The notes under the pieces: model-generated
Told to the model about the DNA's origin: nothing
Database searches by the model: none
What the model saw: the letters and a program-made list of their open reading frames with translations, nothing else
Program-made: the position numbers and the translations under genes
In this document: piece after piece, positions 10,457 through 47,543 of the stretch
Position numbering within the stretch: position 1 is the stretch's first letter
Layout: each line of letters opens with the position of its first letter
DNA from: Methanofollis liminatans DSM 4140
GTDB lineage: Archaea; Halobacteriota; Methanomicrobia; Methanomicrobiales; Methanofollaceae
NCBI RefSeq assembly: GCF_000275865.1
Contig: NZ_CM001555.1
Coordinates: 2,010,967 to 2,074,966 of the forward strand
Direction: 5' to 3'
DNA: 64,000 bases

Positions 10457-10457
10457 T

Positions 10458-12850: not shown

Positions 12851-12894
12851 AGATTTCTCCTGCCCGTATGCTCCCAGGTGCATCTCAGGCACAC

Positions 12895-12919: not shown

Positions 12920-12950
12920 ATCTACCTTGACCGCCCATGTTCTCTCGACC

Positions 12951-14868: not shown

Positions 14869-14940
14869 ATCTGTTTCGGGTGGTGCATGCGTTCATTTAT
14901 AGTGTTCGGAGGGGGTGTGCCGCATGACGGGGCCGGGCAG

Positions 14941-14979
14941 GCGGTGGCGATCGTGCTGCAGATGAACGGGCAGGGGTGA
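14941..14979 (+). repeat. Duplicated 3' end of the XhlA-like gene
   Basis: GGCGGTGGCGATCGTGCTGC and the following AGATG match 13155-13178 with one mismatch, and both copies run on to a TGA stop after a short Gly-rich tail (MFGWG versus MNGQG). The copy at 14941 has no matching gene body, so it looks like a remnant left on the other side of the inserted DUF4062 gene. Confidence 0.55.
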
Positions 14980-15177
14980 AGAAGGCCGCTCTTCTAATAT
15001 TCAGATCTTCGAACCAAACTTCAGTAGGAGTGAAAAATACTCTGCAAATACCGGGTTGATTATTTAATGAAACCCATCCAGCAACCAGATAAGGCATCAA
15101 AAATATCAAAACGACAATATTATTTATTCTCTCGATAAGCACCTTTCATGTGTCCTTCTAACCCCTCAAAAGTCATA
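14980..15177 (+). promoter_or_regulatory. A/T-rich upstream region of the HerA module
   Basis: A sharp drop in GC content begins near 14990. The region holds acaatattatttattctctc (about 15112-15131), a plausible TATA region about 50 bases before the ATG at 15178. No gene is supported here. Confidence 0.5.
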
Positions 15178-16116: not shown

Positions 16117-16157
16117 CGGCTGACTGAAAGATATCAATACTCCATGGAGCAAGACCC

Positions 16158-31540: not shown

Positions 31541-34500
31541 CTATTCGTCAGCTGCCTCCTTCCTGACGGCATCAAAGATCTCTTTTGCCAGAATTGGAAA
31601 TGCAGACCCCTGAAACTCCTGATCAGACATATACCGCGTCACGATCTTGTCATTATCGGCCATGCGATCGATCATGATCTCCTCGATCAGTCTGCGGATC
31701 CCCAGTTCAAATTTGTCGAGCGGATTCGCGAGAGCGGTCTGGATCACCCGGTCATCGCTGCAGGCGCTTTCCTTGATCTGCTGGAAGAACAACCGGTCTC
31801 CTTCGGCGAACTGTGTCCCGAAACGCTCGTTCAGGACCTCTATGATCTCGGAAAGGGGTGCTTTTTCTTCCTTTGCCTTGCCGGTGCCGACTGCTGAGGG
31901 CGCTCTTACACCGGGGACGTCTCCCTCTCTCAGATCGATGGCGCCGGAAAAGACCCGCTCCAGACGGTAGTACTGGAGTTCGACCTCGTTGCTCACTTTC
32001 ACGATCTCCTCGTCCTGGTCGAGGGTCAGATGAGGGATCAGGAAGCGCCCATAACTGTAGAGCATCTCCAAATCCGGGTCGTTATACGGCATGATCTGGC
32101 TCATGAATGCATACAGCCGGACGTAACTGCAGAGTCTGTCGCGGAACTCCTGCTTCTTCTCCTCATCTTCAATCCCCTTAAAGCGGTCCACGGCGGGCTG
32201 GAGGTGGAACTGCATGCGGGCATGGTCCGAGGGTTTTTGTTGGTCTGGCGGTTTGTAAAAGATCCTGGCGAAGGCCGCCACCTCGCTCCAGAAGTACACC
32301 TGCGCCTGGTCGAGTTGAAATTTGAGGGCTTCAAGCTGCGACGGATCGGTGCATTCCTGGAGGCTGGTTTTGTCATAATAGGGTTTGAATGCCCCGTAAA
32401 TATCTTCGGCCTCGTTGACGAAGTCAAGAACGAACGGCTCGTCTTTTCCCGGGATCTTCCGGTTGAGCCGGGATAAGGCCTGTACGGCATGGACGCCGTC
32501 GAGCCGTTTGTCGACATACATCGTGTGGAGCAGCGGCTGATCAAAGCCTGTCTGGTACTTGTTGGCCGCAATGAGGATCTGGTAATCGTTAGAGTCGAAC
32601 CGTTCGGGGAGCTGGGATTCACTGATGTGCTGGCCGGTGATCACGTCGATGTTCATGCCGGGTTCGGTGTACTCAAGGCCGGTGTTCGGGTCCGTGACGG
32701 TTCCGCTGAAGGCGACGAGGGGATGGATGTCGGTGTATCCGTGTTCGTCGATGTAGCGCTGGAATGCCTCCATATAGCGGACGGCATTGAGGCGTGTGGC
32801 GGTGATCAGCATCGCCTTTGCCCGGCCGCCGAGACGGTGCTGCACATGGGTGCGGAAGTGTTCCACGATCACCGCGGTCTTCTGCTCGATGTTGTAGGGG
32901 TGGAGACTCATGAATTTTGCGAGCACCCGGGCCGCCTTCTTCCTGGGCATAGCGGGGTCTTCCTCGATGGCCTTCAGGAGTCTGTAGTAGGTGGCATAGG
33001 TGGTGTAATTGGTCAGGACGTCGAGGATGAACCCTTCTTCTATCGCCTGGCGCATGCTGTAGAGGTGGAAGGCTTCAGGGACGCCGTCTGCGCCGGGTCT
33101 GCCGAAGAGTTCGATCGTCTTGCCTTTGGGTGTGGCGGTGAAGGCGAAGAAACTCAGGTTTGGCTGCCGGCCGCGGGATTGCATGACCTGGTTTAACCCA
33201 TCTTCCCAGTCGGGATCGCCGTTTTCCCCGGGTGTTGCGGCTGCACCGAGGATCGCCTTCAATTCCCGGGAAGTCTCACCGCTCTGGCTGGAGTGGGCTT
33301 CGTCCACGATCACCGCATAGTTTCGGACGGCGATGGCCCGCTGCCACGCTTTTGCCTGTTCTTTCTCCTCTTCGGTCGCCTCTTCGAGGTTTTTTGCCCC
33401 TGCTGCGGTGAGCAACCCATGCAACACAAACGGGAACTTCTGGAGGGTGGTAACCACGATCTTTGTGCCGTCGATGAGGGCTGCGGCCAGTTGTTTTGAG
33501 TCCTGGTCGATGGCCTGGACTACTCCCTGTGCGTGTTCGATCTGGTAGATGGCGTCCTGGAGTTGCTGGTCGAGGATGCGGCGGTCGGTGATGACGATGA
33601 CGCAGTCGAAGATTTTTTTGTCGTCTGCGTTGTGGAGGCTGGCGAGCCGGTGGGAGAGCCAGGAGATGCTGTTGGTCTTGCCGCTGCCGGCGGAGTGCTG
33701 GATGAGATAGTTGTGTCCCGGACCTTCTTTTTTGGCGGCGGCGACGATCGCGCGGAGGGCGTCGAGCTGGTGGTAGCGGGGGAAGACCATCTTCTCCTTT
33801 TTGATACGCTTTTTCCCGCCGTGCCCGTCGTCGACGGTCTGTTCCTTATTTTCGATGAACATGAAGCGGCCGATGATGTCGAGGAAACTGTCGCGCTGGA
33901 GGACGTCTTCCCAGAAGTAACCGGTGCGGTAGCCGGAGGGATGGGCGGGGTTGCCGGCGCCGCACTGGATCTGGCCGGGGTGGCTGCCGCGGTTGAACGG
34001 GAGGAAGTTTGTCCGGTCGTTTTCGAGGCAGGTGGTCATGTACACCTGTTCACTGTCGGCGGCGAAGTGGACGAGGGACCGCTTTTTGAACTGGAAGAGG
34101 GGAGCACGCGGGTCCCGGTCTTCACGGTATTGCCTCACGGCGTTGCGCCAGGTCTGGCCGGTCCCGGGGTTTTTCAGTTCGCAGGTCGCCACCGGGATGC
34201 CGTTGACGGCGAAGAGGAGGTCCACGGTGTCGCACCTGCCCGGGTGGCAGGGGACCTGGCGCGTGAGAGTCAGCTGGTTTTTTGCGTAGAGGGCAAGGGT
34301 CTCTGCGTTGAGGCCGTGGGCCGGTTTGAAGGAGGCGAGCCTGAAGGTCTTACCGTAGAACTTGAAGCCGTGGCGGAGGACGTGGAGGGTGCCTTTGGTG
34401 TCGAGTTCTTTGACCAGGGTCGCGAGGATGAGGTCTTCGAGCCGTTCCCCGTGGAGTCCCTGCATCTCGGCCCAGAGGTCGGGTTGCGTCTCCTGGAGGA

Positions 34501-34633
34501 AGGAGACGATCCGCTGCGGGAAGAGGGCGCGTTCGACGTCCCATTCTTCTTTTTTGCCCGCCTGCCAGCCTCCTTTGCGGAGGATCTCTTCGAGGTAGGT
34601 TTCAAAGGCCTTCTCGTCGGTCTGACCGGTCAT
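31541..34633 (-). CDS. hsdR: Type I restriction enzyme, R subunit
   Basis: 1030 residues, normal for HsdR. The N-terminal nuclease domain has DLLFAVNGIPVATCELKNP (PD-ExK). The motor follows with HSAGSGKTNSISWLSHRL (motif I) and VIVDEAHSSQSGE (DEAH). Further helicase motifs include FFAFTATPKGKT and ALSRLNRKIPGKDEPFVLDF. It cuts unmodified DNA after translocation. Overlaps hsdS by four bases, and the operon order is M-S-R. No frameshift is seen, so the system looks complete. Confidence 0.95.
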   Translation of the reverse strand: MTGQTDEKAFETYLEEILRKGGWQAGKKEEWDVERALFPQRIVSFLQETQPDLWAEMQGLHGERLEDLILATLVKELDTKGTLHVLRHGFKFYGKTFRLASFKPAHGLNAETLALYAKNQLTLTRQVPCHPGRCDTVDLLFAVNGIPVATCELKNPGTGQTWRNAVRQYREDRDPRAPLFQFKKRSLVHFAADSEQVYMTTCLENDRTNFLPFNRGSHPGQIQCGAGNPAHPSGYRTGYFWEDVLQRDSFLDIIGRFMFIENKEQTVDDGHGGKKRIKKEKMVFPRYHQLDALRAIVAAAKKEGPGHNYLIQHSAGSGKTNSISWLSHRLASLHNADDKKIFDCVIVITDRRILDQQLQDAIYQIEHAQGVVQAIDQDSKQLAAALIDGTKIVVTTLQKFPFVLHGLLTAAGAKNLEEATEEEKEQAKAWQRAIAVRNYAVIVDEAHSSQSGETSRELKAILGAAATPGENGDPDWEDGLNQVMQSRGRQPNLSFFAFTATPKGKTIELFGRPGADGVPEAFHLYSMRQAIEEGFILDVLTNYTTYATYYRLLKAIEEDPAMPRKKAARVLAKFMSLHPYNIEQKTAVIVEHFRTHVQHRLGGRAKAMLITATRLNAVRYMEAFQRYIDEHGYTDIHPLVAFSGTVTDPNTGLEYTEPGMNIDVITGQHISESQLPERFDSNDYQILIAANKYQTGFDQPLLHTMYVDKRLDGVHAVQALSRLNRKIPGKDEPFVLDFVNEAEDIYGAFKPYYDKTSLQECTDPSQLEALKFQLDQAQVYFWSEVAAFARIFYKPPDQQKPSDHARMQFHLQPAVDRFKGIEDEEKKQEFRDRLCSYVRLYAFMSQIMPYNDPDLEMLYSYGRFLIPHLTLDQDEEIVKVSNEVELQYYRLERVFSGAIDLREGDVPGVRAPSAVGTGKAKEEKAPLSEIIEVLNERFGTQFAEGDRLFFQQIKESACSDDRVIQTALANPLDKFELGIRRLIEEIMIDRMADNDKIVTRYMSDQEFQGSAFPILAKEIFDAVRKEAADE

Positions 34634-36030
34634 ACCTCTGCCCTCTCCCGCACATCGATCTTCCCGGTGACGGCGGCGGTGATCAGCGCCGAGCGGTACT
34701 CCTGCAGGCGGTCGATCACCGCTTCTTCCAGGGAGACCAGACGATCGATCTTTGCGGTCTGGCGGTCGAGGAAGTCGGCGATGGCGCGTTGTTCGGGGAG
34801 AGGGGGGATCAATATAGGTATATTACGAAGAATGTCGGTATTTATTGACTCCCTCGTAGATCCAACAGACTGCAGTTCTACGAATGTTAGTCCCGCCTCC
34901 GAACCGAGAATATAAAGAGCATATCTCCTATTGATTTGTGGATTTCTCAATCGGAGTCTCAACATTTGACCAGAGATTAGCCATCCATCTTCTTTTTCCG
35001 TACATAACGCAATTCTTCCGACACTTCCAACACGACTGAAGACGAGATCACCGGTCTGCAACCGATACATTGCCAATCGACTCGCATCTTCTTCAGATAT
35101 TCTGGGTATTTCAGTATCGTCGATTTTAAAGTCATTCACATTACGAATCAAAATCAGTGGAACACCCTCATCTACATAATCACTTGCATGGAGTTGTGCC
35201 CCGAAAGGTCCAGTTTGGACGACCGATTGATCGTTTCCTTCAAGCAACTTTACTTTCGCAACACCCCAGTGCTCTGGCACATCTCCCAGCCATTCAACAC
35301 CCGAAGGCTTGAGCGGGGGATGGGGGTCGAGCCCGGCGGCCCGGGCGGCGGCGGGCGGGAGGCCGCGGGTGACCGTCCGCGAGATGAGGGCGGAGCGCTT
35401 CTCCTTCAGTCTCTCGATGAGCGCCCGCCTCTTTGCGATGAGGGTGTCGATCCGTCCGGTCTGGCGGTCGAGGAAATCGGCGATGGCGCGCTGTTCGTCA
35501 ATCGGAGGAAGTGGTAACAACGCCTCTCCAATTGCACTTTTTGGCAATCCATATCGTGTCACACCAGTTGCGGCGATCTGGAACTGGTGGTTGACGGCAC
35601 TGGATTGTAAGGACCGAAAGAGAAATGCCCCCAGTAGTTTCCGGAGGTTGGGCCGAATAATTGCAAGGTGGTAACCACATACAAGATCTGGAGTTGTCTC
35701 CCTAACAAGGGCAGGAACAGCAATATCATCCCATTCCTCAGAGTCTTTGGTAATTACCACGTCACCGAGATGGAGTCTGAACCTTTGAATCTCCTCGGCG
35801 GTTGCCGTTGTCTCCATCAACTCTAATCCCGGATGGATGTGGTCATTGTAGTAGACATCTGTGTAGTTGCAGAGCCGGACTGGTAATTCGTCTTCAGATG
35901 GAACCTTATCTACATTACTTGTCCTGGTATTTGCTGTGGTTTTAAGCCGCTTCACCTCCCACCCCGCCGGCACATCCCCCAGCCACGCCACGCCGCTGGG
36001 CTTATACGAAGGATAAGGGGAATACTTCAC
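34630..36030 (-). CDS. hsdS: Type I restriction enzyme, specificity subunit
   Basis: 466 residues with two target-recognition domains, each introduced by KPSGVxWLGDVP and closed by a conserved helical spacer containing EQRAIADFLDRQT (around residues 200 and 415). The second half of the first spacer (KRRALIERLKEKRSALISRT) and of the second (EEAVIDRLQEYRSALITAAV) are similar. The TRDs read the two halves of a bipartite site. The TRD stretches are lower in GC than the spacers, typical of module exchange. Overlaps hsdM and hsdR by four bases each. Confidence 0.95.
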   Translation of the reverse strand: MKYSPYPSYKPSGVAWLGDVPAGWEVKRLKTTANTRTSNVDKVPSEDELPVRLCNYTDVYYNDHIHPGLELMETTATAEEIQRFRLHLGDVVITKDSEEWDDIAVPALVRETTPDLVCGYHLAIIRPNLRKLLGAFLFRSLQSSAVNHQFQIAATGVTRYGLPKSAIGEALLPLPPIDEQRAIADFLDRQTGRIDTLIAKRRALIERLKEKRSALISRTVTRGLPPAAARAAGLDPHPPLKPSGVEWLGDVPEHWGVAKVKLLEGNDQSVVQTGPFGAQLHASDYVDEGVPLILIRNVNDFKIDDTEIPRISEEDASRLAMYRLQTGDLVFSRVGSVGRIALCTEKEDGWLISGQMLRLRLRNPQINRRYALYILGSEAGLTFVELQSVGSTRESINTDILRNIPILIPPLPEQRAIADFLDRQTAKIDRLVSLEEAVIDRLQEYRSALITAAVTGKIDVRERAEV

Positions 36031-38147
36031 TCGGCCACCTCCTCCAGAAGCGCCAGGATTTCCCTCTCCAGCGCCTTGATCTCTGCATCAATCTCCTCCA
36101 GGGACCGCGGGGGCTCGTACTGGTAGAAGTGGCGGTTGAGCGGGATCTCATACCCCACCTTCGTCCTCTTCTCGTCAATCCAGGCGTCGGGTACATGGGG
36201 CAGCACCTCGCGTGCAACATACTCCTCGATGCTCTCCTTCAGGGGCACGCTCTCGGTGTCTCGGAGGTCTGCATCCGGCTCAGGATTGCCTTTGCTATCG
36301 CGGCAGATCTCCGCCGTCTCGTCCCGCTCGCCCAGGGCGTTCAGCACCGCCTTCAACTCTGCGGCTGTCAGGAGCACCCCTTTCCTGCGGTCCATCGCCC
36401 GCAGGTCGCGGAGGAAGGCGATACGATCCTTGTAGCATTTTCCCCCACTGGATTCTGCGAATGCTTCGAGAAGTGCACGTATCTCTTGCTGCCGCTGCTT
36501 TCCCGCCCCTATCTCCTTGAGGCGCATCTCCCCATCCTTTTTCTTGCTCGTGGCAAGGTTCTGGAAGGCCGTCTCATTCACGATCCGCTCGATACGCTCA
36601 GGTGTGGCCTGGAAATTCAGCCGGAGCGGGCGCTCGACAGTGATCTTCTGGTAGCCAAAATCCTCGTTATCGAAGATCTTGCTGACAACAACGCTCTTCT
36701 CATCACCGTTCGTACCGATCAGGCGCGTCTCGCCGTCCCGGAAGGCGCCATAGATCCGCGTGATCTCCCCGATCTGGTCGGGTTCCCCCTCGTCCTTCTC
36801 CCCGATCTTGTTCCGCTTGTTCCCCAGGCTCTTCTTCATCTTCACAAAGAACTGGCGTGCATCGATGAGCTGGACCTTCCCCTTACGCTCCTCGGCCTTC
36901 CGGTTCGTCAGCACCCAGATGTAGGTAGAGATCCCCGTATTGTAGAAGAGCTGGTCAGGCAGGGCGACAACCGCCTCAAGCCAGTCGTTCTCGATGATCC
37001 ACCGGCGGATCTCGCTCTCCCCGCTCCCGGCATCGCCCGTGAACAACGGCGACCCGTTGAAGACGATGCCGATCCGGCTGCCGCCTTTTTCTGGCGGGCA
37101 CATCTTGGAGATCATATGCTGGAGGAAGAGCAGCGAACCGTCATTGATGCGGGGCAACCCTGCGCCGAACCGGCCATTGTAGCCCAGCGTTTCATATTCC
37201 TTCGTGATAAACGCCTGTTGCGTCTTCCACTCCACGCCGAAGGGCGGGTTCGCCAGCATATAATCAAACGTGATCTTCTCGCCACTGTCGCTGTAGCTGA
37301 AACTGTCCTTGGCAAAAGAGTCGCCAAGCCGGATATTATCCGCCTCCTCCCCTTTGATCAGCATGTCGGACTTACAGATCGCCCAGGCCTCATCATTCAG
37401 ATCCTGACCATAGAGCAGCGGTTTGGCCTCGTTGTTCAGCTCGTGGATGTATTGCTCGGCCACTGAGAGCATCCCCCCGGTCCCGCAGGCCGGATCGAAG
37501 ATCGTCTTCACCACATGGCTCCGGGCCAGATCCTTCTCAGGCGAGAGCAGGAGGTTCACGATCAACTTGATCACCTCGCGCGGGGTGAAGTGCTCCCCGG
37601 CCTCTTCGTTCGACTGTTCGGATCCGATCCTGATCAATTCCTCGAAGATATAGCCCATCTGGATATTATCCACATGATCAGGGGAGAGATTGACCGTATC
37701 GAACGCCTTGATGACCTCATAGAGGAGGTTCTTTTCATCCATCTTGGCAATCTGCTGACTGAACGCAAATCTCTCCATTATTTTGCGGACGTTGGGAGAG
37801 AAACCGTTGATATAACCGTTTAGATTTGGAGCAAGATTTTCCGGGTCATCGAGCAATGTGTGGAAGGTCAATCTGGACAGATTATAAAAGGGCAGGCCTG
37901 TGATCTTCTGAAGTTTGCTGCGAATAACACTCTCCGGCTTGTTCTTGATCTCAGCGTACTCCTGGAGAACCAGTTCTTTGGTGGGCACCAGCAGACAGTC
38001 AAAGCGCCGCAGCACGGTAAGGGGCAGGATAACCTTCCTGTATTCGTTGCGCTTGTACGGTCCCCTGAGCAAATTGCAGATGTTCCAGATGAAATTTGCC
38101 ATTTCAGCGTGTGTAGCCGTTGTGCTGCTGTTCTTTGTTGCCATCAT
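36027..38147 (-). CDS. hsdM: Type I restriction enzyme, M (N6-adenine methyltransferase) subunit
   Basis: 706 residues from the first of two tandem ATGs (38147/38144); the open frame extends 23 codons further but without support. FDPACGTGGMLSVAEQYI is motif I (AdoMet), NPPFGVEW is motif IV (NPPF), and the N-terminal helical bundle ANFIWNICNLLRGPYK is typical of HsdM. The C-terminal extension of ~200 residues is longer than in many homologues and contains several charged helices. First gene of the M-S-R operon. Confidence 0.95.
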   Translation of the reverse strand: MMATKNSSTTATHAEMANFIWNICNLLRGPYKRNEYRKVILPLTVLRRFDCLLVPTKELVLQEYAEIKNKPESVIRSKLQKITGLPFYNLSRLTFHTLLDDPENLAPNLNGYINGFSPNVRKIMERFAFSQQIAKMDEKNLLYEVIKAFDTVNLSPDHVDNIQMGYIFEELIRIGSEQSNEEAGEHFTPREVIKLIVNLLLSPEKDLARSHVVKTIFDPACGTGGMLSVAEQYIHELNNEAKPLLYGQDLNDEAWAICKSDMLIKGEEADNIRLGDSFAKDSFSYSDSGEKITFDYMLANPPFGVEWKTQQAFITKEYETLGYNGRFGAGLPRINDGSLLFLQHMISKMCPPEKGGSRIGIVFNGSPLFTGDAGSGESEIRRWIIENDWLEAVVALPDQLFYNTGISTYIWVLTNRKAEERKGKVQLIDARQFFVKMKKSLGNKRNKIGEKDEGEPDQIGEITRIYGAFRDGETRLIGTNGDEKSVVVSKIFDNEDFGYQKITVERPLRLNFQATPERIERIVNETAFQNLATSKKKDGEMRLKEIGAGKQRQQEIRALLEAFAESSGGKCYKDRIAFLRDLRAMDRRKGVLLTAAELKAVLNALGERDETAEICRDSKGNPEPDADLRDTESVPLKESIEEYVAREVLPHVPDAWIDEKRTKVGYEIPLNRHFYQYEPPRSLEEIDAEIKALEREILALLEEVAE

Positions 38148-38518
38148 TCCATCACTCGTGTTCCATAAGATTCGTGGGTGTCGTGTATAGCCATTCTTAT
38201 TGCCTGCACCGATCATCCTGCAGGTTTTTCATTTCCATAACCGCTACGTCCAGATCAAACTTCATCCCCGCATCACCATCTGGATCGTTCAGCCGGTTAC
38301 CTCAAGAATGAAATCATGTTTCGCGATAATTTTAACCGAATATCCTGCAATGAACCTTCTATTTCCTCAAAGGCACGATATACTTTTTCAATTGTATCGA
38401 TGTCCTCTACAGGAAGTATCTTCTGCGAATGCCCCGGCAAAAGAGCCTTTTAGTATCCTCAGATCTCCCCGGCCCGGAACCGCAGGGTGATATACAAGAC
38501 CCGCACAAATGTCATCTT
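38148..38518. promoter_or_regulatory. Divergent region between the hsd operon and the EVE operon
   Basis: About 370 bases without a supported gene. A/T-rich stretches occur at 38318-38345 (gcgataattttaaccgaatatcc) and 38380-38400 (cgatatactttttcaattg). Promoters for both operons must lie here. ORFs reading through have no protein-like composition. Confidence 0.5.
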
Positions 38519-38977
38519 ATGACCCGCTGGCTCGCCATATCCAACCGCACAAACTCCGACATCACGATCAAAAAACACCTCTGGGGCGTCCCGAAGCGCG
38601 CCATCAACCAGATCAGCAAGACCCACCCATGCGACACCCTCCTCGTCTATGTCGGGCAGCAGGTGATCGATAAGGACACCACCCTCCCGCCGGCGATCAC
38701 CGGGTGCTTCGAGATCATCTCAGAGGTCTATGAGGACGCAAAACCGGTCTTCACCGCACCCCCGAAACTCGGGAATGAGGTCTTCCCGCTGCGGATCAAA
38801 CTGAAGACGATAGAGGTCTTCGACCCCCCGGTCGAGTTCAAGCCCCTGATCCCGCACCTCGCCTTCATCACCAACAAAAAGCAGTGGTCCGGGCACATCA
38901 GGGGCCAGGCGATGCGGACGATCCCGGAGGAGGACCACGCGTATATCATGAAGGCGGCACAGACGCCGCGGGACTGA
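38519..38977 (+). CDS. EVE-domain protein (PUA-like modified-base reader)
   Basis: 152 residues from ATG 38519. TRWLAISNRTNSDITIKKHLWGVP starts the domain; DTLLVYVGQQ, ITGCFEIISEVYED and PHLAFITNKKQWSGHIRG complete the EVE fold, which holds an aromatic cage for flipped modified bases in characterised relatives. EVE domains are commonly fused or linked to restriction systems. Here it is encoded four bases upstream of a nuclease gene. Confidence 0.88.
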   Translation: MTRWLAISNRTNSDITIKKHLWGVPKRAINQISKTHPCDTLLVYVGQQVIDKDTTLPPAITGCFEIISEVYEDAKPVFTAPPKLGNEVFPLRIKLKTIEVFDPPVEFKPLIPHLAFITNKKQWSGHIRGQAMRTIPEEDHAYIMKAAQTPRD

Positions 38978-38981
38978 TCAG

Positions 38982-39896
38982 ATGGGCGACATCCGCATCT
39001 TCCGCATCGACGGCCCGCAGGCAGAAGAACTCAAAGGCACCTCCGTCGCCCTGGAAAAATCCCTCCAAACCTACATGGAGCAGAACCTCGAACCCCTCCT
39101 CGGCGTCACCTTCCTGGCCAGCGAATATGCCACCGGCAAGACGCACGGCGGCCGGATTGACACCCTCGGTATCGACGAGAACGGCTTCCCGGTCATCATC
39201 GAATACAAGCGGGCGCTCAACGAGAACGTCATCAACCAGGGGCTCTACTACCTCGACTGGCTCCTCGACCACAAGGCCGAGTTCGAACTCCTCTACCTGA
39301 AGAAGTTCAAGAAGCAGGGCGACGAGGTCATCGACTGGACCGGCCCCCGCCTCCTCTGCATCGCCGGCGACTTCACCAAATACGATGTCCACGCCGTCCA
39401 GCAGATCAACCGGAATGTGGAGCTGATCCGCTACCGCCAGTTCGACCGCTCCCTCCTCCTCCTCGACCTGGTGAACGTCACCTCCCAGAACGGCGACACC
39501 GCCGCCCCGGCACCCTCCGCCCCCGGCAGAAAATCGACTGGGAAGACCTTCAGCGACGCCCTCGCCCTCTCTGACACCGACCTGCAGGACCGCTACGAAG
39601 CCATCAAGGCCTTCTGCCTCGCCCTCGGCGACGACGTCCAGGTGAAGATCACCAAATTCTATGCGGCCTTCCGGCGGATCAAAAACTTCACCAGTGTCGA
39701 GATACGCCCGCAGTCCGGCCTGCTCCTCCTCTACCTCCGCCTCGACCCCGACACCGTCACCCTCGAGGAGGGGTTCACCCGCGACGTGAGAAGGATCGGT
39801 CACTGGGGGACCGGCGACCTGGAGATCGTCATCCGCTCGGACGCCGAACTGGAGCGGGCCCGCCCCCTGATCGTGCGGAGTTATGAGGAGAACTGA
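38982..39896 (+). CDS. PD-(D/E)XK nuclease-like protein with DUF5655 C-terminal domain
   Basis: 304 residues. The N-terminal domain shows GGRIDTLGIDENGFPVIIEY followed by KR, the PD-(D/E)XK active-site arrangement (D, then E-x-K). NQGLYYLDWLL follows. After a Pro/Ala-rich linker near residue 185, the C-terminal ~115 residues match DUF5655 (VKITKFYAAFRRIKNFTSVE, GHWGTGDLEIVIRS). This architecture is known from genomes but not assigned a biological role by me. Coupled to the EVE gene, it may cut modified DNA. Confidence 0.85.
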   Translation: MGDIRIFRIDGPQAEELKGTSVALEKSLQTYMEQNLEPLLGVTFLASEYATGKTHGGRIDTLGIDENGFPVIIEYKRALNENVINQGLYYLDWLLDHKAEFELLYLKKFKKQGDEVIDWTGPRLLCIAGDFTKYDVHAVQQINRNVELIRYRQFDRSLLLLDLVNVTSQNGDTAAPAPSAPGRKSTGKTFSDALALSDTDLQDRYEAIKAFCLALGDDVQVKITKFYAAFRRIKNFTSVEIRPQSGLLLLYLRLDPDTVTLEEGFTRDVRRIGHWGTGDLEIVIRSDAELERARPLIVRSYEEN

Positions 39897-39961
39897 GTTT
39901 TGATGAAAATCCCTTTCAGCGGAAAGTATCTGAGGGAATAGACCTCATCTTTTTTCTGGGA
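39897..39961 (+). terminator. T-run between nuclease and TBP-like gene
   Basis: Catcttttttctggg at 39946-39960 is an oligo-T tract ending just before the TBP-like ATG. It could terminate the upstream operon, but the short distance leaves read-through possible. Confidence 0.4.
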
Positions 39962-40480
39962 ATGAAAATAGTCAATATCGTCTCCTCAGGCGACCTCCAC
40001 CAGCCCGTCCCCTTCCAGCGGCTGCCCGAACTCCCCGCCAGCAGGTACAAATACGACCCAGAGATGTATCACGGAGCCTACCTACTCCTCAACGCAGGCA
40101 AGGCCACCGTCTACCGGAGCGGAAAATATATTTTAATCGGTCTGAAAGCGCTTGAAGAGGTAGATACATCATTCAAAGAACTCCTCGCCCTCCTCTCCCC
40201 CATCATCGACCCCTCCCTCGTCTCGCCGCCGCGGGTCCAGAACATCGTCGGCATGGAGGATTTTCAGGTCGAGATCCCGTTGACAAGGCTCGTCGTCGCC
40301 CTCCAGATGGAGCGCGTCGAGTACGAACCCGAACAGTTCCCGGGCGTCATCTACCGGGGGGAGCAGGGCACCGCCCTGATCTTCTCCTCGGGCAAGGTGA
40401 TCCTCGCCGGGTTCAAAGACCTGGGTGCGATGGCGGCGTTCGCATCAGAACTGAAGGAAAAGATCAGGACGATCGGATAA
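39962..40480 (+). CDS. TATA-box-binding-protein-like paralogue
   Basis: 172 residues with the two-fold TBP saddle. The second repeat is canonical (VQNIVGMEDFQVEIPLTRLV, YEPEQFPGVIYR, LIFSSGKVILAG). The first is diverged: YDPEMYHGAYLLL replaces the usual FPGLVYR stretch, though KIVNIVSSGDL and TVYRSGKYILIG remain. Canonical TBP uses both halves and pairs of phenylalanines to bend DNA, so binding may differ. The location in an accessory block beside restriction genes is unusual, and it probably directs element-specific transcription. Confidence 0.88.
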   Translation: MKIVNIVSSGDLHQPVPFQRLPELPASRYKYDPEMYHGAYLLLNAGKATVYRSGKYILIGLKALEEVDTSFKELLALLSPIIDPSLVSPPRVQNIVGMEDFQVEIPLTRLVVALQMERVEYEPEQFPGVIYRGEQGTALIFSSGKVILAGFKDLGAMAAFASELKEKIRTIG

Positions 40481-40508: not shown

Positions 40509-41171
40509 TCAACGGTGTGCATCCCCGAGGAACCGCACATCGCAAATCGCCGTTGTGTCCAGCACCCGCCCCCGGTTCCGCACGATATGGCCCAGGTCCC
40601 CCGTCCACAGCACCAGCCCCGGCACACACAGCGCCAGGTCATGGGCGTCGAGCACCACCTCGATATCGTCCGGGTCGTCGATGGCGTTCAACCCCCGGTA
40701 GATCTCCGGGTAATCGGTCCGCCGCCGGTGCAGGGAGAGCACCGCCCGGTCCTCCAGGCGGGCCAGGCGTCGGGTGCACTCCCCCTCATAGCAGGTCTTC
40801 ACCTCCTCCAGCACCTTCCCGATCGCCGCCGCCTCCCTCCCGGCCCTGGCGATCGCCTCAGCCACAACACCCTGGATCCTCCACGTCGCCACCTCCGCCT
40901 CCAGGGCATCGGCCGACGGATCCCGTTTCAGGGCGGCGATCGCCCGGCGGAACTCCCGCACAATCTTTTTCTGGATTGTGGCACACCGCCCGCCGTTCTC
41001 GACCCCGAAACACTCCCCCCAGACAAACGTGCTCGAATAATTCAGTTCGGGATCGTCAAACACACAGGTCGCCGCCCGCCCCCAACCATCGGCGGCATGA
41101 AAATAGTAGCCGATCAGGACGTTGCTGTCATGGAAATACGGCAGCCTAACGCCTCCCCGGCGGCATCTCAA
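40509..41171 (-). CDS. PIN-domain-like protein, probable toxin partner
   Basis: 220 residues. FHDSNVLIGYYF at the N-terminus, WGECFG, VVLDAHDLALCV and LWTGDLGHIV provide the spaced acidic residues of a PIN nuclease. A ~90-residue helical insertion separates the first two from the last two. It overlaps the end of the upstream Panacea-like gene by 26 bases, so translation is probably coupled. RNA cleavage is predicted from the fold only. The first ATG codons are uncertain because of this overlap. Confidence 0.75.
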   Translation of the reverse strand: MRCRRGGVRLPYFHDSNVLIGYYFHAADGWGRAATCVFDDPELNYSSTFVWGECFGVENGGRCATIQKKIVREFRRAIAALKRDPSADALEAEVATWRIQGVVAEAIARAGREAAAIGKVLEEVKTCYEGECTRRLARLEDRAVLSLHRRRTDYPEIYRGLNAIDDPDDIEVVLDAHDLALCVPGLVLWTGDLGHIVRNRGRVLDTTAICDVRFLGDAHR

Positions 41172-42129
41172 GCGCCAGGGACCGGGAGAGGCGCATTGTC
41201 AGGTCAAGGAGATCGCTGGTCGTTGTTGTGACCTCGCAGAGGTTTTCGGGGTGCTCACGGAAGAGACCCTCCCTGATGGTATCAAATCTCTCCTCCACCT
41301 CCTCGCAGTACGCCGCCAGCACCTCTCTCCCGACCGCACCGGACTGCACGGCGTACGAAGTAAAGCACAGGGCGTCGCAGCACTCAGCGGTCAGGGATGA
41401 CACCACCGCCGGGTTCAATCGAAGGGCCAGGCGGAAGGTGTCGTCCCATGCGAGGTATGCGTCGTAGAAGACCGCAAGCGAGGGGAGGGGGTAGCGCACC
41501 ACGAGATCGTCGAGGACCTCCTCCACCTTTACGACCCGTTCCGGGGTAAAGGGATGGATGGCATCTGAGAGATCCGCCGACAGCGTGGTCATGCGGGTAC
41601 AGAACTCCCGCTGAAACCCGTCGATAAAGAGCCCGAAACTTTCAACAAGCCGCATCTCATCGTCATCGAGGGCAAAGTAATCGAGGGGGATCTCTTCACC
41701 GTCCCTGAATTCTTTCCAGAGCCGGAGGTGGTGGGTGAGGTCGCTGACCGATGTGGCCTTTTTCCCCCTGAGTGCTGTCAGGATCATGTGAAAGAGAGCG
41801 ATTTCATAGCGGCTGAACAGATCACGGTTCACCGGCACCCTGACCTGAAACAGATAATGGTCATAGGGCCGGGTGGCCGAACTTTTCCCCTTCCCTCTGC
41901 TCTTCTTGACCGTGAAAAAGTCGTTTGTTTCGCCGGTGAGAGAGTACGCCACCGGATCCACCGGTCCCTTCGGCATCCTGATGTAGGTGCTGTCAAAGAG
42001 GGTGGTGCCCCGCTGGTTATAGTGGATGAGGTCGGCGAAGAAGATGAACTTCATCAGTTTTGTCCGACCGATGGCGGGGTCATGCTCCATCGCATAGAGC
42101 ATCGCATGGATTTTTTTGAGTTTTTTCAT
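41146..42129 (-). CDS. Panacea/SocA-like antitoxin domain with a long C-terminal extension
   Basis: 327 residues from ATG 42129, chosen for the GGTGATG upstream; 42144 is the alternative. The N-terminal ~130 residues (KKIHAMLYAMEH, GRTKLMKFIFFADL, GPVDPVAYSL) match the Panacea/SocA (DUF4065) fold, known in hyperpromiscuous antitoxins. The remaining ~190 residues are helical and unfamiliar to me. The gene is directly upstream of, and overlaps, the PIN gene, which fits an antitoxin-toxin order. Normal Panacea proteins are shorter, so this is a fusion or an enlarged form. Confidence 0.78.
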   Translation of the reverse strand: MKKLKKIHAMLYAMEHDPAIGRTKLMKFIFFADLIHYNQRGTTLFDSTYIRMPKGPVDPVAYSLTGETNDFFTVKKSRGKGKSSATRPYDHYLFQVRVPVNRDLFSRYEIALFHMILTALRGKKATSVSDLTHHLRLWKEFRDGEEIPLDYFALDDDEMRLVESFGLFIDGFQREFCTRMTTLSADLSDAIHPFTPERVVKVEEVLDDLVVRYPLPSLAVFYDAYLAWDDTFRLALRLNPAVVSSLTAECCDALCFTSYAVQSGAVGREVLAAYCEEVEERFDTIREGLFREHPENLCEVTTTTSDLLDLTMRLSRSLALEMPPGRR

Positions 42130-42248
42130 ACCATCACCCCGCATCGCCGGAAAAAACGCTCCGCTTTCCCATCGGCTTTGCGTCTATACACCTCGTATGA
42201 TGTATACAAAAAGATAACCCTTTCGGAAAAAGAGCGTGCCCTGAATGT

Positions 42249-42488
42249 TCACCTCCCGCCGTGCGCACCGTTCACCACCCCCACCACCGCCATCACCCAG
42301 TAAAACCCGAACATCACCATCACGTACGGGTTCTCCGTCACCGCCCCGTACGCCACCCAGAACAGATTCCCCACCACCCACGCAAAAAACCCACACGCCC
42401 GCACGCCGGAACTCCTCCCGGCCACCAGCACCGCCCCCACCATCCCGAGCACCACCGCCGGCGCCTGGAGGGGATCGAGAGGGATCAC
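42249..42488 (-). CDS. Small membrane protein
   Basis: 79 residues with two or three hydrophobic helices (AVVLGMVGAVLVAG, FFAWVVGNLFWVAYG, YVMVMFGFYWVMAVVGVV). It starts inside the last codons of the primase-helicase gene (four-base overlap), so it belongs to the right-end replication operon. Similar small proteins with a WVxGNxxW pattern occur in phages and plasmids, but I cannot assign one. Confidence 0.7.
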   Translation of the reverse strand: MIPLDPLQAPAVVLGMVGAVLVAGRSSGVRACGFFAWVVGNLFWVAYGAVTENPYVMVMFGFYWVMAVVGVVNGAHGGR

Positions 42489-45232
42489 GCGATCCCCCTC
42501 CCCTCATTCCACGCCCGCACCAGCCGCGCATAACACCCCTCGCAGAGGCGCGTCCGCCCGTCCGCCGACCGGAACACCGCCCGCCCCTCCCCGCATCCCG
42601 TGCAGCGCCCGAGGTCCGTGCTCACCCGGGAAAACTCCGTGTGCTCCAGCACGCCCGGCAGGGTCAGCACACCTGCCCGCTCTTTCAGCACCATCCCGAC
42701 ATTCGGCGTTTTTCGGCAGGCGCTGAAAACAGAACCGGCGCCATTCTCACCGGTATCCGGGTTTTCGTCCCCGTTCTGCCGGTTTGAAAAACCACTTTCA
42801 GCAGGCCGGGAACCACAGCCCCCCACCCCCGCCTCTTCGCCATCGCCGGTCGCACCCTGTGATCCCTCTTCCTGCTGAAAAGAAGTACCTATGTACGTAC
42901 CTTGATCATTATACTCCTCAGTACGTTCGGATCCGCCCCCGTCCTGACCCGTTCCCTTCTTTCGGCAGGTGCTGAAAACCTGCTGAAAACTGCTGTCATC
43001 ATCCGGGTCATCGTCCAGCCATACGCCGGGGCTCGCCGCCCACTCCCGGTAACGCACCCGGTCAAAGAGAAAGTGCAGCTCGTGCCGCTTCACCGAACAC
43101 TCGCAACCCTCCTCGGTCACCGTCGTGTTGATCACGCTCACCGCCGGGCACTTCTCCAGCAGCCCCGTATAGGTCGTCCCGCGGCTCACATACCCCTGCA
43201 GCACCCGGTAGGCCTGCTGATACGAGATCCCGAGCGCCTCCTGCAGCTGCCCGACGGTGAACACGCTGACGCCCATCGCCGCGATCGTCTCCAGGGCCGC
43301 CGCCTCGTTCCGGGTCATCTTCGACTCTTGCCCCCCGGCCGTCCCGTTCAGGGCGCCGTAGAGCCGGACCGCTGCGGCGAAATCGTCGGGGGATGCGATC
43401 ACCCGTCCCTCCTCGTCACACCCCCGCTGCAGGAAGAAGAGGCGGGCACGGCACTTGATCAGGTCGAAGAGCATGCCGGGGTTCCGGCGGTTCTGCGCCG
43501 CCGAGAAGTGGATGCGCCGGGCAAACGGGATGCGGACCGGCAGGACCTCTTCCTTGACGGCCTCCCAGATCGCCCGGGCGGTCTGCACCGCTTCGCTCTC
43601 CCCGGGGTCAGGCACGGTCGCCTCGGCCCTCTTCATGTGTTCGAGCACCGCCCGGTCCTGCTCTTTCGAGTCATCGATCCAGACGGTGAGCATGCGGTTC
43701 ATCACCTGGTCGTCGCCCGGGTCCTCGACGCGGGCGAGCCACCAGACGCACCGTTCAGGGATGGCGCAGACGCGGAGCTGCCGGTCGGCGGTGACGGTGC
43801 GGTGCTCAATAGGTTCCTTGAAGTTGGTGGTTGCTGACTTCAGGACCTCCTGGAGGTCGTCGGATAACGAGACATCGTCGAAGAGGAGGACGGTGCCGGG
43901 CCGGAGGCTGTCGTGGTAGTAGAGCGCCTTGTTGGAGACGGTGCCCTTGAGCCTGAAGATCTCGGGGAGGAGGTTGAGCATGACGTTGCATGCGTGGGTC
44001 TTGCCCTTGCCTGAGTTGCCCGAGATGGCGACGTGCAGCCCGTTCGTGTTCTCGACCGCCTGCGAGGCGATGGACAGGATCAGGCACTCGGCGACGGTGC
44101 GGTCGCCGACATGCTCCCGGTTGAAGGTGTCCAGGAGGAACCGGAGGGGATCGCCGTGCTGCAGGATCTCCATCGCCCGCTCCCGGTATGCCGGCGCCGG
44201 CGCCGGTGCTGCGGGAGGAGGGGGAGGCGGAGGTGGCGAAACCTCCTGCCGCTTCTGCCTCTTTGGTTCGTGCATCGCCCGGAGTTCGGGCCAGCGCTGC
44301 ACCCCGCCGCCGCAGCTGGCGTGGTGGCACCCGGCATAGACCGCTCCCGAGGAGAACTGGATCGCAAAGGCGCCGTCGTGGTGGGCGCCCGAGAAGGGGC
44401 AGTCCTCCAGGACATAGAGGGTGCCGCCCTGCCAGGGCCGGGTGCTCCGCACGGCCAGGGCGTGCTCACGGAGCCAGCGCCCCAGGTCGAAGGGGGAGGA
44501 GGCCTTCGCCGGGGCCGGGGCCTCGACCGGGAGGAGGGCGGCGATCTCCCTGAGGAGGTCGGGGGAGACGGTCTCCGCCGTCTCGGGCGCCGAGAGGATC
44601 CTCGCCCGCCGGTGCGGGCGTTCGGGCGTGTGGTCGCCCTTGCGCGAGGTGGTGCCGTAGAGTTTCCAGATCCGGGCGGGGTTCGAGTTGGCGGTGTCCA
44701 CGGTGACGTGCTCATCAGAGAACAAGGCGTCGAGGGTGGTGAGCACCCCTTTGACCAGCCCGCCGTCGTCGGGCGGGAGGTCGATCCGGTAGAGGAGGTG
44801 CGCCCCGTTGCCCGAGTCAGCCCGGATCGGGGCGGGGAACCCCCGATCGGAGAGCCAGAGGGCGATCTCGTCGGCTTTCCGCAGGGCGGCGTCATGCTCC
44901 GCATCGGTGGACGAGACCCCGCTCGGCCGCACCGGGTCCAGGTCGATGGGCAACCAGCGCCGGCGGAGGATGTCGGTGTCGCTCGTGGTGGGATCGTTCC
45001 TGGTCAGCCGCATCTTCACCCGGTTCGCCCGCCGGGCGAGGAGGGCGCCCTTCACCTCATTGAGGGTGACGTAGATCCCCCGGACCTCCGGGTCGGCGTC
45101 CAGGGCCGCCGCCGCCTCGGCGCACTTCGCCAGGTCGTCGAAGTAGCCCGAGTGCGTGAAGCGGTCGGCGAGGGCCCGGACCTCCACCACTCCCCCCTCG
45201 CAAAACAGGGCGGCGAGGGCCTCCCCGATCAT
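42485..45232 (-). CDS. Primase-helicase replication protein of the element
   Basis: 915 residues. The N-terminal part resembles archaeo-eukaryotic primase/prim-pol proteins of plasmids (LPIDLDPVRPSG, SGNGAHLLYRID), followed by a zinc motif (CPFSGAHHDG ... GCHHASC), a Pro-rich linker near residue 335, an AAA+ ATPase (SGNSGKGKTHACNV about residue 400, LLFDDVSL), a winged helix (VGQLQEALGISYQQAYRVL) and a low-complexity tail ending in a zinc ribbon (CTGCG ... CEGC). It should prime and unwind the element's DNA. The coding sequence is very GC-rich. It lies in an operon with small genes next to the integrase. Confidence 0.82.
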   Translation of the reverse strand: MIGEALAALFCEGGVVEVRALADRFTHSGYFDDLAKCAEAAAALDADPEVRGIYVTLNEVKGALLARRANRVKMRLTRNDPTTSDTDILRRRWLPIDLDPVRPSGVSSTDAEHDAALRKADEIALWLSDRGFPAPIRADSGNGAHLLYRIDLPPDDGGLVKGVLTTLDALFSDEHVTVDTANSNPARIWKLYGTTSRKGDHTPERPHRRARILSAPETAETVSPDLLREIAALLPVEAPAPAKASSPFDLGRWLREHALAVRSTRPWQGGTLYVLEDCPFSGAHHDGAFAIQFSSGAVYAGCHHASCGGGVQRWPELRAMHEPKRQKRQEVSPPPPPPPPAAPAPAPAYRERAMEILQHGDPLRFLLDTFNREHVGDRTVAECLILSIASQAVENTNGLHVAISGNSGKGKTHACNVMLNLLPEIFRLKGTVSNKALYYHDSLRPGTVLLFDDVSLSDDLQEVLKSATTNFKEPIEHRTVTADRQLRVCAIPERCVWWLARVEDPGDDQVMNRMLTVWIDDSKEQDRAVLEHMKRAEATVPDPGESEAVQTARAIWEAVKEEVLPVRIPFARRIHFSAAQNRRNPGMLFDLIKCRARLFFLQRGCDEEGRVIASPDDFAAAVRLYGALNGTAGGQESKMTRNEAAALETIAAMGVSVFTVGQLQEALGISYQQAYRVLQGYVSRGTTYTGLLEKCPAVSVINTTVTEEGCECSVKRHELHFLFDRVRYREWAASPGVWLDDDPDDDSSFQQVFSTCRKKGTGQDGGGSERTEEYNDQGTYIGTSFQQEEGSQGATGDGEEAGVGGCGSRPAESGFSNRQNGDENPDTGENGAGSVFSACRKTPNVGMVLKERAGVLTLPGVLEHTEFSRVSTDLGRCTGCGEGRAVFRSADGRTRLCEGCYARLVRAWNEGRGIA

Positions 45233-45573
45233 GGGTAGCCCTCCTCGATGAGGGGGAAGAGCGGCGCCGAGACCGCCTCTCCCGTGACCACCCGGCGGAA
45301 CGAGACGAGCGGCACGATGAAGTGGCCGATCCTGGTGAAGATCTTCACCGCCCGGCCCGTGACGCCCATCGCTGCGTGCCCGACGATCGCCGTCTCGGTG
45401 ACGATCACACCGTCCGGTCCCTCCTCGGCGACGGTCATCGTCACCGGGGCCGGGTGGCCGCGGAAGAGCAGGGTCCGCAGGTCGTCCTCGGCGATCCGGT
45501 AATGCTCACCCCCGACGATCAGGTGGAGGTTGTCCCCGGTGCCGAGGCGCAGGGTGCCGATCTCCTCGTTCAT
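45229..45573 (-). CDS. Small element protein, paralogue of the gene at 9572-9832
   Basis: 114 residues; four-base overlaps join it to the primase-helicase gene downstream and the 84-residue gene upstream. Beta-rich, with GRAVKIFTRIGHFIVPLVSF then RRVVTGEAV matching the left-end paralogue. No family name is known to me. Its coupling suggests a replication accessory role. Confidence 0.72.
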   Translation of the reverse strand: MNEEIGTLRLGTGDNLHLIVGGEHYRIAEDDLRTLLFRGHPAPVTMTVAEEGPDGVIVTETAIVGHAAMGVTGRAVKIFTRIGHFIVPLVSFRRVVTGEAVSAPLFPLIEEGYP

Positions 45574-45824
45574 TCCTCCCCCTCCCGGGTGACCACCGCG
45601 ACGGTGTAGCCGTTCCCGGCCACCTGTCGGACGTGGATCTCCTCGATCTGCCTGCCGAAGAGGCAGATTGCCGCCTCGATCATCTGCGGCACCAGGGAAA
45701 GCGGCACCGATACCGGCACCAGAATGTCGCTATGCTTATCTGCCATGCTCTCCGAGTCTGTGATGGCGGCCGGGCGGTTGGTGCGGTAACCATGTTCGTC
45801 CTGGCTGCCATCTATGCCCTGCAT
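45570..45824 (-). CDS. Small hypothetical element protein
   Basis: 84 residues from ATG 45824, which has a strong GGAGGAG site; an internal ATG at 45746 would give 58 residues with a weaker site. The last 55 residues (ILVPVSVPLSLVPQMIEAAI then HVRQVAGNGYTVAVV) look like a compact alpha/beta domain. Overlaps both neighbours, so it is one of a chain of coupled genes. Function unknown. Confidence 0.65.
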   Translation of the reverse strand: MQGIDGSQDEHGYRTNRPAAITDSESMADKHSDILVPVSVPLSLVPQMIEAAICLFGRQIEEIHVRQVAGNGYTVAVVTREGEE

Positions 45825-45955
45825 CTCTTCTCCTCCGCGACGATTTCCCAGATGCCGTGTTCAACCATTCGTTTCCCGATGCCCCGGTAGAACGGCGACC
45901 GTTCCTCAAAGGCGTCGATGTCTTCCGGTCTGACTTTTCGTGGTCCGTTTTTCAT
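45812..45955 (-). CDS. 47-residue hypothetical protein
   Basis: Translated by eye: MKNGPRKVRPEDIDAFEERS begins the protein, which ends EIVAEEKRCRA. The gene overlaps the start of the 84-residue gene by 13 bases and contains that gene's ribosome-binding site. Too short for most gene callers. Possibly a small DNA-associated regulator; unrecognised. Between it and the integrase end (45956-46120) no gene is seen. Confidence 0.55.
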   Translation of the reverse strand: MKNGPRKVRPEDIDAFEERSPFYRGIGKRMVEHGIWEIVAEEKRCRA

Positions 45956-46120
45956 GGAGGTCTGCCTCCGCAGTGAGGGGGCCGCAACCGGGTGATCGCT
46001 GAAACAAATGCTGCCGCCAGGGGCAGGTGGTGGGGGGTGAATGTCGGCCCGGCCGCCCTCGAAAAAGAGATGAAGATTTCGGGGTTATAAACAAAAAGTA
46101 GAGGTTTCGAATGTGTTTTT

Positions 46121-47350
46121 TCAGATTTCACCTTTCCGTTTCTTCTCGTTGATCATCTCCTCGACCATCGCCCTGAGGATCTGCGGGTGGGCGGTGAGAT
46201 CGGCCTCCATCTCCTCGATGGTGGCGATGCTCTCGCCGGTGAGGGCGCGGTGGCAGGTGGTGCAGTAGCGGGCGGTCGGGGCGTTGATGGTGTGGCACCC
46301 GGGACACTCCCGCGGCTCCAGGCTTGTGTCGGCCGCCTCGGCGGCGACGGTGACGCCGTAGTGGCCGAGGATCTCGCGGTCGATGTCCCGGCCGGTGAGA
46401 TGGGCGTAGGTCCCGAACATATCGGTGCTCAGGTTGCCCCACATCATCAGTTTGATGACCGACTCGTTGACGCCCTGGGTGATGAGGTGGGTGATGCGCG
46501 AGTGGCGGAAGAGGTGAGGCGTGACGTGTTTGGTGAGGCCGGCCCGCGCGGCAAGGTTGGTGAGGATCTTGAGGGTGGTGGCGTACTGGAACGGCGTCTT
46601 GCGGTTGGTGATGAAGACGAGGGCCCGCCCTTTTGGCTCGAAGGGGAAGTCGTTTCGCCATGCGGCGAGGTAGGGGAGGGACATGACCAGCCTGACGTGC
46701 CGGGTTTTGTGGCATTTGGTGTCCTCGACGGTGAGGACGGCGCCGTGTGCGTCGAAGGTGACCCGCTCCCAGGTGAGCCGCCCGATCTCGCCGATCCGGC
46801 ACCCGGACTCGTAGAGCACGGCGACGAGCGCACGGTCACGGGAGTTTGCGGCGGCTTTGATGAGGGCCCGGATCTCTTCCGGGGTGAGCATGTGCTCGGG
46901 GAGTTTGGTGTTCCGGTCCATGTCAGGCGCCTTGATCGCCTTGACCTTCTTGATGGGGACGGTGGAGATCTCGTTCTCGATGAGCCAGAGGTAGAAGCGC
47001 TTGAGGAGGATGATGTGGTCGTGCAGGGTGTTCTGCTTGAACGGTTTGCCCCGCTGGTTGGTGCCCCCTTTCAGGCGGTTGATGCCGGCGTAGAGGTCGA
47101 GGATGGTGTTGGTGCGGTACGGTCCGAGGAAGCGCCGCCAGTTGACGAGGAGGTAGATGAGTTTGTTGATCCGGACGGTGGTGAGCCCCCGGGAGGCCTG
47201 TTGTTCGGTGATGAAGGCCTCGAGGAGGGTGGCGTCGTCGTCGGTGAGACGGCCCTCAGCGAGGGCGCGGTCGATGGAGCGGTGCGCATAGACCTGCTTG
47301 ACCAGGTGGAAAGCACGGTCTTCCTGGGTTGGTGCGGTAGTTGAACCCAT
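46121..47350 (-). CDS. Tyrosine recombinase (integrase) with C-terminal zinc ribbon
   Basis: 409 residues. A SAM-like N-terminal domain (~50-125) precedes the catalytic domain: Arg185 in SGCRIGE, HLFR (His279, Arg282), Trp304 in MMWGN at the His/Trp position, and Tyr315 in TYAHL. The C-terminus holds CPGCHTINAPTARYCTTC, a zinc ribbon also seen in other archaeal integrases. It cuts and rejoins DNA at attachment sites. The gene starts 63 bases from the 3' end of tRNA-Ser, the classic position for tRNA-targeting elements. The gene is not split by the attachment site, unlike SSV-type integrases. Confidence 0.92.
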   Translation of the reverse strand: MGSTTAPTQEDRAFHLVKQVYAHRSIDRALAEGRLTDDDATLLEAFITEQQASRGLTTVRINKLIYLLVNWRRFLGPYRTNTILDLYAGINRLKGGTNQRGKPFKQNTLHDHIILLKRFYLWLIENEISTVPIKKVKAIKAPDMDRNTKLPEHMLTPEEIRALIKAAANSRDRALVAVLYESGCRIGEIGRLTWERVTFDAHGAVLTVEDTKCHKTRHVRLVMSLPYLAAWRNDFPFEPKGRALVFITNRKTPFQYATTLKILTNLAARAGLTKHVTPHLFRHSRITHLITQGVNESVIKLMMWGNLSTDMFGTYAHLTGRDIDREILGHYGVTVAAEAADTSLEPRECPGCHTINAPTARYCTTCHRALTGESIATIEEMEADLTAHPQILRAMVEEMINEKKRKGEI

Positions 47351-47410
47351 GAAGAGTGGTCAGAAAGGAGGTATTAAAAGATTCGGTTGAAGAATTGAAC
47401 TTGAATTCTT

Positions 47411-47423
47411 AACGCCGGGGGGG
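47411..47423 (+). other. Candidate right attachment site in the tRNA-Ser 3' end
   Basis: AACGCCGGGGGGG is the 3' end of the tRNA gene (acceptor stem plus discriminator, on the minus strand) and matches 7641-7653. Its position with the integrase at its side fits an att site that rebuilds the tRNA on integration. Confidence 0.55.
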
Positions 47424-47497
47424 AGATTTGAACTCCCGAGGTGTCAGACACCAGTAGCTTTCGAGGCTACCGCCTTCCCGGACTAGACTACCCCGGC
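47413..47497 (-). tRNA. tRNA-Ser(CGA)
   Basis: 85 nt on the minus strand. The acceptor stem GCCGGGG pairs with CCCCGGC, the anticodon stem is GTAGC/GCTAC with loop CTCGAAA (anticodon CGA, reading UCG), a long variable arm follows, and the T-arm has GTTCAAATC. The discriminator base is G, as expected for serine tRNA. CCA is not encoded. Confidence 0.93.
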
Positions 47498-47543
47498 ACT
47501 GCGTGGGTAAAAATATCTGTCGGCAGTCCAGATAACCTTTACG

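Follow-up and report, generated by a model that had tools for sequence, protein, structure and literature searches.

Gene content of the locus

The window analysed here is a stretch of 64,000 nucleotides from Methanofollis liminatans DSM 4140, whose genome is assembled as one contig of 2.475 Mb. On its minus strand lie hsdM (36027-38216, taken as the longest open reading frame, the true start being possibly further in), encoding a type I methyltransferase (PF02384, PF12161; PADLOC MTase_I, 943 bits), hsdS (34630-36030), encoding the specificity subunit (PF01420; PADLOC Specificity_I), and hsdR (31541-34633), encoding the restriction subunit (HSDR_N, SWI2_SNF2 and T1R_D3; PADLOC REase_I). According to Pfam and PADLOC the three genes are intact, and with their 4-nt overlaps they form a single operon and a complete type I RM system. 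The plus strand carries a module that faces away from this operon and consists of an EVE gene (38519-38977), a nuclease gene (38982-39896) and a TBP-like gene (39962-40480). The common orientation of these three genes, divergent from hsdM-hsdS-hsdR (31541-38216), and the spacing of 4 nt between the EVE stop and the nuclease start are as described in the earlier note on this DNA. The intergenic region 38217-38518 is common to the hsd operon and the EVE module and presumably contains the promoters of both.

The first gene of the module encodes a protein of the PUA superfamily (PF01878, 56 bits with a cut-off of 23; NF002008, 170 bits with a cut-off of 139) with the solved relatives 2p5d (MJECL36) and 1wmm (PH1033), and is predicted to read modified bases. 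The nuclease has an N-terminal PD-(D/E)XK part, weakly similar to NucS_C (PF01939, 22.0 bits, cut-off 24), and a C-terminal DUF5655 domain (38.8 bits, cut-off 24), and matches over its full length the model PDLC04946 (467 bits) of PDC-S18, a candidate single-gene PADLOC entry. A full NucS/EndoMS identity was rejected given the scores for PF01939 and NF003270 (21.3 of 216 bits), the resemblance to NucS being confined to the catalytic-domain part. The AlphaFold model (pLDDT 59) is too poor for a structure search, and the PD-(D/E)XK fold is a putative one; of its motif, D60-x13-E74-x-K76 and Q86 are invariant in 15 sequences. EVE adjoins the nuclease or stands one gene away from it in 11 of 15 nuclease loci, and EVE and/or DUF365 lies upstream of it in 12 of the 15; together with the invariant D-x13-E-x-K residues, this arrangement makes a modification-dependent nuclease a plausible reading of the EVE-nuclease pair.

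Between the nuclease and the TBP-like gene, a stretch of 24 nt on the plus strand (39918-39941, AGCGGAAAGTATCTGAGGGAATAG) corresponds to the 3' end of the DUF365 gene (codons ..S-G-K-Y-L-R-E-stop) that stands directly upstream of the TBP gene in relatives and for which a solved relative exists (2kku). The match is exact and single in the window, none being expected by chance, and it aligns with the intact DUF365 3' ends of five other loci (L039, L040, L042, L048 and L103). The module was therefore formerly arranged EVE-nuclease-DUF365-TBP, with DUF365, a putative second reader, deleted in the window; the TBP gene has thus lost its neighbour and yet persisted. The short T-run noted earlier before the TBP gene is present, but it is not free-standing and belongs to a DUF365-TBP leader conserved in relatives.

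Beside the module (40509-47498) are found an unknown gene of 220 aa, a SocA/Panacea gene, a gene of 915 aa with no Pfam match, a tyrosine integrase and a tRNA-Ser(CGA). At eight loci (L045, L040, L104, L109, L110, L116, L119 and L122) the 915-aa gene is again found close to the TBP or the nuclease, as if these genes were carried by integrative elements of a single kind. A search for a duplicate of the tRNA-Ser 3' end, which could mark the element end (att), found none.

The TBP-like protein and its clade

The TBP-like protein matches PF00352 over two repeats (95.4 bits, gathering threshold 22.9), and its fold model is a normal TBP saddle (pLDDT 90.5; TM 0.9 to human TBP). Its departure from ordinary TBPs lies in the N-lobe, where the intercalating Phe pair is replaced by Tyr (Y36 and Y51), as in 15/15 close relatives; with one of the two canonical Phe pairs missing, the protein is a TBP homologue and not a canonical TBP. 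The C-lobe retains its Phe pair (F141 being Leu in one relative) and an EPEQFPG motif that is invariant in 14/14 sequences. Within this motif E122 and E124, which are invariant in 15/15, correspond to the two acidic residues of EPE described as TFB contacts (PMC7221094).

In a maximum-likelihood tree of 113 TBPs, which is midpoint-rooted, has some long branches and does not include the pNRC100 TbpC among its rows, the 15 sequences of the window type make up a single branch (100/99) and group with 22 haloarchaeal TBPs in a 37-member clade (100/100), apart from the other 76. The haloarchaeal members have Tyr or His at the two N-lobe positions occupied by Phe in ordinary TBPs. The TbpC of Halobacterium salinarum pNRC100 carries the same N- and C-lobe signature and shares 83% identity with L130, a clade member, and on these residues the clade of the window TBP matches the TbpC family, with the N-lobe pair lost and the C-lobe pair kept. 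TbpC-like TBPs were described in 2014 in haloarchaea; their function was left open, a loss of function being suggested, and restriction was not mentioned (PMC4230888). The present clade agrees with that description in its residues but also takes in methanogens and haloviruses, and its genes are linked to defence operons.

Linkage to defence operons

Close relatives of the window TBP have a patchy distribution and occur in about 20 of the 232 genomes of the order Methanomicrobiales. Thirteen of 14 intact relatives lie with EVE, DUF365 or nuclease genes, which are present at 0 of 78 other TBP loci; in the remaining one, from Methanospirillum hungatei M59 (L109, identical to L124), the TBP lies between hsdS and hsdR. 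The prospect raised in the earlier note that the homologues would occupy a fixed chromosomal site unlinked to defence is therefore contradicted, and its suspicion that a TBP paralogue is tied to defence, which would be unusual, was borne out by the neighbourhood survey. A conserved housekeeping position is likewise ruled out by the varied neighbourhoods of the relatives. The host genome itself holds a second copy of the module within a BREX system (L039, G000:C1:1284001-1304000, 9930-16937), with the genes PglZ-BrxL-EVE-nuclease-DUF365-TBP in the same direction and identities to the window copy of 91% for the nuclease, 76% for the TBP and 55% for EVE. Elsewhere the order is EVE-nuclease-DUF365-TBP (L040), EVE-nuclease-TBP adjoining a type I system (L041), or EVE-DUF365-TBP divergent either from BREX genes (L105; BrxC, 705 bits) or from a helicase and type IIG pair (L103), and the TBP directly precedes PglZ in a BREX locus that also has EVE and DUF365 (L107), a position directly before PglZ being recorded for a BREX locus of the genus Methanospirillum. 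At L043 (7943-9770) and L044 (8069-9896) an AAA_21 ATPase and DUF4276 pair stands between DUF365 and TBP, as if inserted. Eight further loci contain TBP remnants or broken copies (L045, L047, L048, L049, L050, L051, L108 and L110), comprising the first 33-92 residues, an inner piece, the last 54 residues, or frameshifted genes. Such remnants are often found at points where other defence genes start, marking replaced modules.

Among the haloarchaea the TBP accompanies other systems. It ends type I operons, as hsdM-hsdS-hsdR-TBP (L129) or hsdR-hsdS-hsdM-TBP with a 4-nt overlap with hsdM (L235), and follows a type IIG enzyme or a type IIG-helicase pair with overlaps of 1-4 nt or abutting (L128, L130, L231 and L238), the overlap being of 4 nt with the type IIG enzyme in L238 and with the helicase in L130, L241 and L309. 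The tbpC gene of H. salinarum pNRC100 follows methyltransferase (MTase) pieces and a helicase, one MTase gene being interrupted by an ISH3-like element. In a Haloarcula BREX locus the TBP stands between a PglX-like MTase and PglZ, and at other loci it is divergent from an MTase or PglX gene across 119-197 nt. In halovirus HRTV-9 the TBP gene comes after a type IIG enzyme; in HJTV-2, whose TBP aligns poorly in the N-lobe, the gene has an N4-MTase and an Eco29kI nuclease nearby. Further annotated records place the TBP with BREX-5 in three genera, with a type I system and with a DUF499 system. Some of the annotated records, those of pNRC100, the two haloviruses and Haloarcula included, were selected for names in which TBP C or helicase already appeared, and they are illustrative and not counted. 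One locus (L232, 9087-10311) has two clade-type TBP genes in a back-to-back arrangement with 122 nt between them, and hsdM-hsdS-hsdR follows directly downstream of one of the two.

Overall, type I, type IIG, BREX, DUF499 or helicase-MTase systems occur in or beside 34 of the 45 clade loci vs 0 of 105 control TBP loci (Fisher p about 2e-24), a comparison in which some of the query proteins were taken from clade loci and 37 of the 105 controls belong to the same two archaeal groups. With the 11 loci that supplied query sequences removed, 23 of 34 are linked (Fisher p 3e-18). PADLOC searches of 71 proteins beside haloarchaeal Tyr-TBPs gave matches of MTase_I models to up to 10 of them and of type IIG models to up to 7, and among the 128 proteins beside ordinary TBPs both were absent from the top matches listed, where the best families, mostly generic helicases, reached 7-8 proteins. 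Ten ordinary TBPs from haloarchaeal plasmids have metal, phosphonate and unrelated genes as neighbours and are not near restriction systems, L302 being an uncertain case since it adjoins a helicase, an unspecified methyltransferase and NucS. The 105 TBP loci, the 128 neighbour proteins and the 10 plasmid TBPs rule out linkage by chance. Scans of the genome and of viral contigs with single proteins found nothing.

At eight control loci (L270, L271, L273, L275, L277, L279, L281 and L282) a second ordinary TBP of the Methanomicrobiales adjoins a gene of ~900-1000 aa, and seven control neighbours match SNF2/BrxHI-like helicase models (best E 7e-111). Eukaryotic Mot1 is a SNF2 ATPase that acts on TBP, and these SNF2-like neighbours of TBP recall it.

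The association goes beyond the two-component, EVE-nuclease system to which the earlier note had assigned the TBP. That assignment proved too narrow: EVE, DUF365 and nuclease genes occur together with no TBP (L111-L116 and L119), and the same clade sits with type I, type IIG, BREX and DUF499 systems that have no EVE or nuclease. Among roughly 18 plasmid BREX-5 loci the TBP is present in only about 3. It is thus not an obligate partner of either the nuclease or BREX-5, both of which mostly occur with no such TBP, and is an optional add-on and not a core part of the linked systems.

Possible function of the TBP

We consider that the window TBP has about an even chance of being an optional, defence-dedicated promoter factor that works with the single TFB of the host and controls the linked defence locus. 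According to this proposal, the TbpC-type TBP would be a specialist transcription factor of mobile defence operons, binding TFB through its unchanged C-lobe, while the rebuilt N-lobe may read a changed TATA half-site and so alter promoter choice; how strongly or when the defence locus is transcribed would be set in this way, as controller proteins do in bacterial restriction systems. The host genome has four TBP genes and one TFB gene, which rules out a dedicated TFB partner, so that the window TBP would have to share this TFB with the others if it acts as a transcription factor. Its positions at the end of operons, within them or at a short divergent distance resemble the layout of a regulator, and the lack of a common effector among the accompanied systems argues for a general task such as expression. 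Control of transcription accounts best for a protein that is optional, joins unrelated systems, keeps its TFB face, has one DNA-reading lobe changed and is placed in operons. An element-specific TBP acting on transcription of the defence genes, as the earlier note proposed, would fit the residue pattern.

Loss of the N-lobe Phe pair could instead abolish stable TATA binding, which counts against a promoter factor. The low frequency of the TBP among plasmid BREX-5 loci indicates that the linked systems can be expressed when it is absent, and deletion of tbpC in Halobacterium has no reported phenotype (PMC2121645), a result qualified by the IS-interrupted MTase gene that adjoins tbpC there. Footprinting upstream of EVE, of the haloarchaeal MTase-helicase-TBP operons and in the divergent BREX-5 regions gave no usable motif for a target promoter, the sequences being too diverged or too few. 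Two divergent TBP/pglX regions of BREX-5 loci from different genera (L247, 7873-7992; L249, 7868-7992) have the short blocks CCACCAGAGTAAT and AATGTTGC in common, and these might be candidate binding sites.

Other roles have to be weighed against transcriptional control. The TBP may regulate nothing and simply secure transcription of the mobile cassette after its arrival in another host, or during infection, once the host TBP/TFB has been seized by viral factors; the patchy distribution of the gene, its carriage with RM genes by plasmids and two haloviruses, and the lodging of the modules in exchangeable slots with TBP remnants are in keeping with this, but most defence cassettes in the same archaea have no TBP, and we regard it as rather unlikely. 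It is improbable, too, that the protein is a structural subunit bending or reading DNA within an effector complex (with EVE/DUF365 and the nuclease here, with an MTase or PglX elsewhere). Cotranscription with the effectors and the 4-nt overlaps would suit such a subunit, N-lobe changes could retune its DNA binding, and TBP proteins do occur in the bacterial TOTE/TALON conflict systems (PMC12458937); the partner systems, however, have no common protein to bind, the TBP is optional even within one type of system, and the invariant TFB-contact motif would be needless for a subunit. That the gene is a passenger, or decaying, in gene-rich defence islands, along the lines suggested for TbpC in 2014, is very doubtful: the remnants and frameshifted copies (L045, L048-L051, L108 and L110) and the tbpC knockout with no phenotype speak for it, but the subfamily is under purifying selection (dN/dS 0.08-0.25), its invariant C-lobe and fixed N-lobe signature extend across two archaeal groups and a virus, and ordinary accessory TBPs on plasmids are not found near restriction systems (10 loci).

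Comparison with known systems and implications

Bacterial controller (C) proteins are helix-turn-helix proteins. Like them and other regulators of bacterial defence operons, the window TBP is a small DNA-binding protein encoded within or divergently from RM or BREX operons; unlike them, it is a paralogue of a general transcription factor that retains its TFB-binding face. EVE genes that stand on their own next to type I RM systems, often with ASCH, have been reported from archaea (PMC7641849), and the combination of EVE, type I RM and a second PUA-like gene, DUF365 in the relatives, is similar; that report contains no TBP gene, DUF365 or DUF5655, its single allusion being a remark on a TBP-like fold in DUF1831. 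The nuclease, catalogued alone as PDC-S18, is here part of a larger arrangement, following EVE and/or DUF365 at most of its loci.

TBP genes are already known from two conflict systems of bacteria, TOTE and TALON (cited in PMC12458937), which likewise encode a TBP with defence effectors that include PD-(D/E)XK nucleases. TALON is reported from Bacillati, mostly Chloroflexota, and includes TPR-CSD and the YprA helicase; neither a TPR-CSD (OB) gene nor a YprA helicase is present in the module or among its immediate neighbours in the window, which is thus not assigned to TOTE/TALON. This comparison with TOTE and TALON is one of gene content. In a literature search that left out most subscription papers, nothing was found that connects the TBP or TbpC of archaea with restriction or BREX operons.

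The location of most genes of the clade beside restriction or BREX genes, in methanogens, salt-loving archaea and some of their viruses, suggests the existence in archaea of a general transcription factor that is specialised for immune functions. A bolder version, which we think improbable, is that this deep clade is an immune-specific general transcription factor swapped among unrelated defence systems and viruses, which may act as a guard, maintaining defence transcription or turning it on during viral takeover of the host TBP and TFB. With this TBP, the type I, type IIG and BREX loci of archaea gain an optional gene that has not been catalogued, and new defence operons in archaea can be sought with N-lobe Tyr in a TBP as the marker. 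It has long been asked why several TBPs are retained by many archaea; the link between the clade and defence gives TbpC a testable job and may explain its missing laboratory phenotype. If the proposal is true, archaeal immunity would use a copy of the basal transcription machinery as its counterpart of the bacterial controller proteins.
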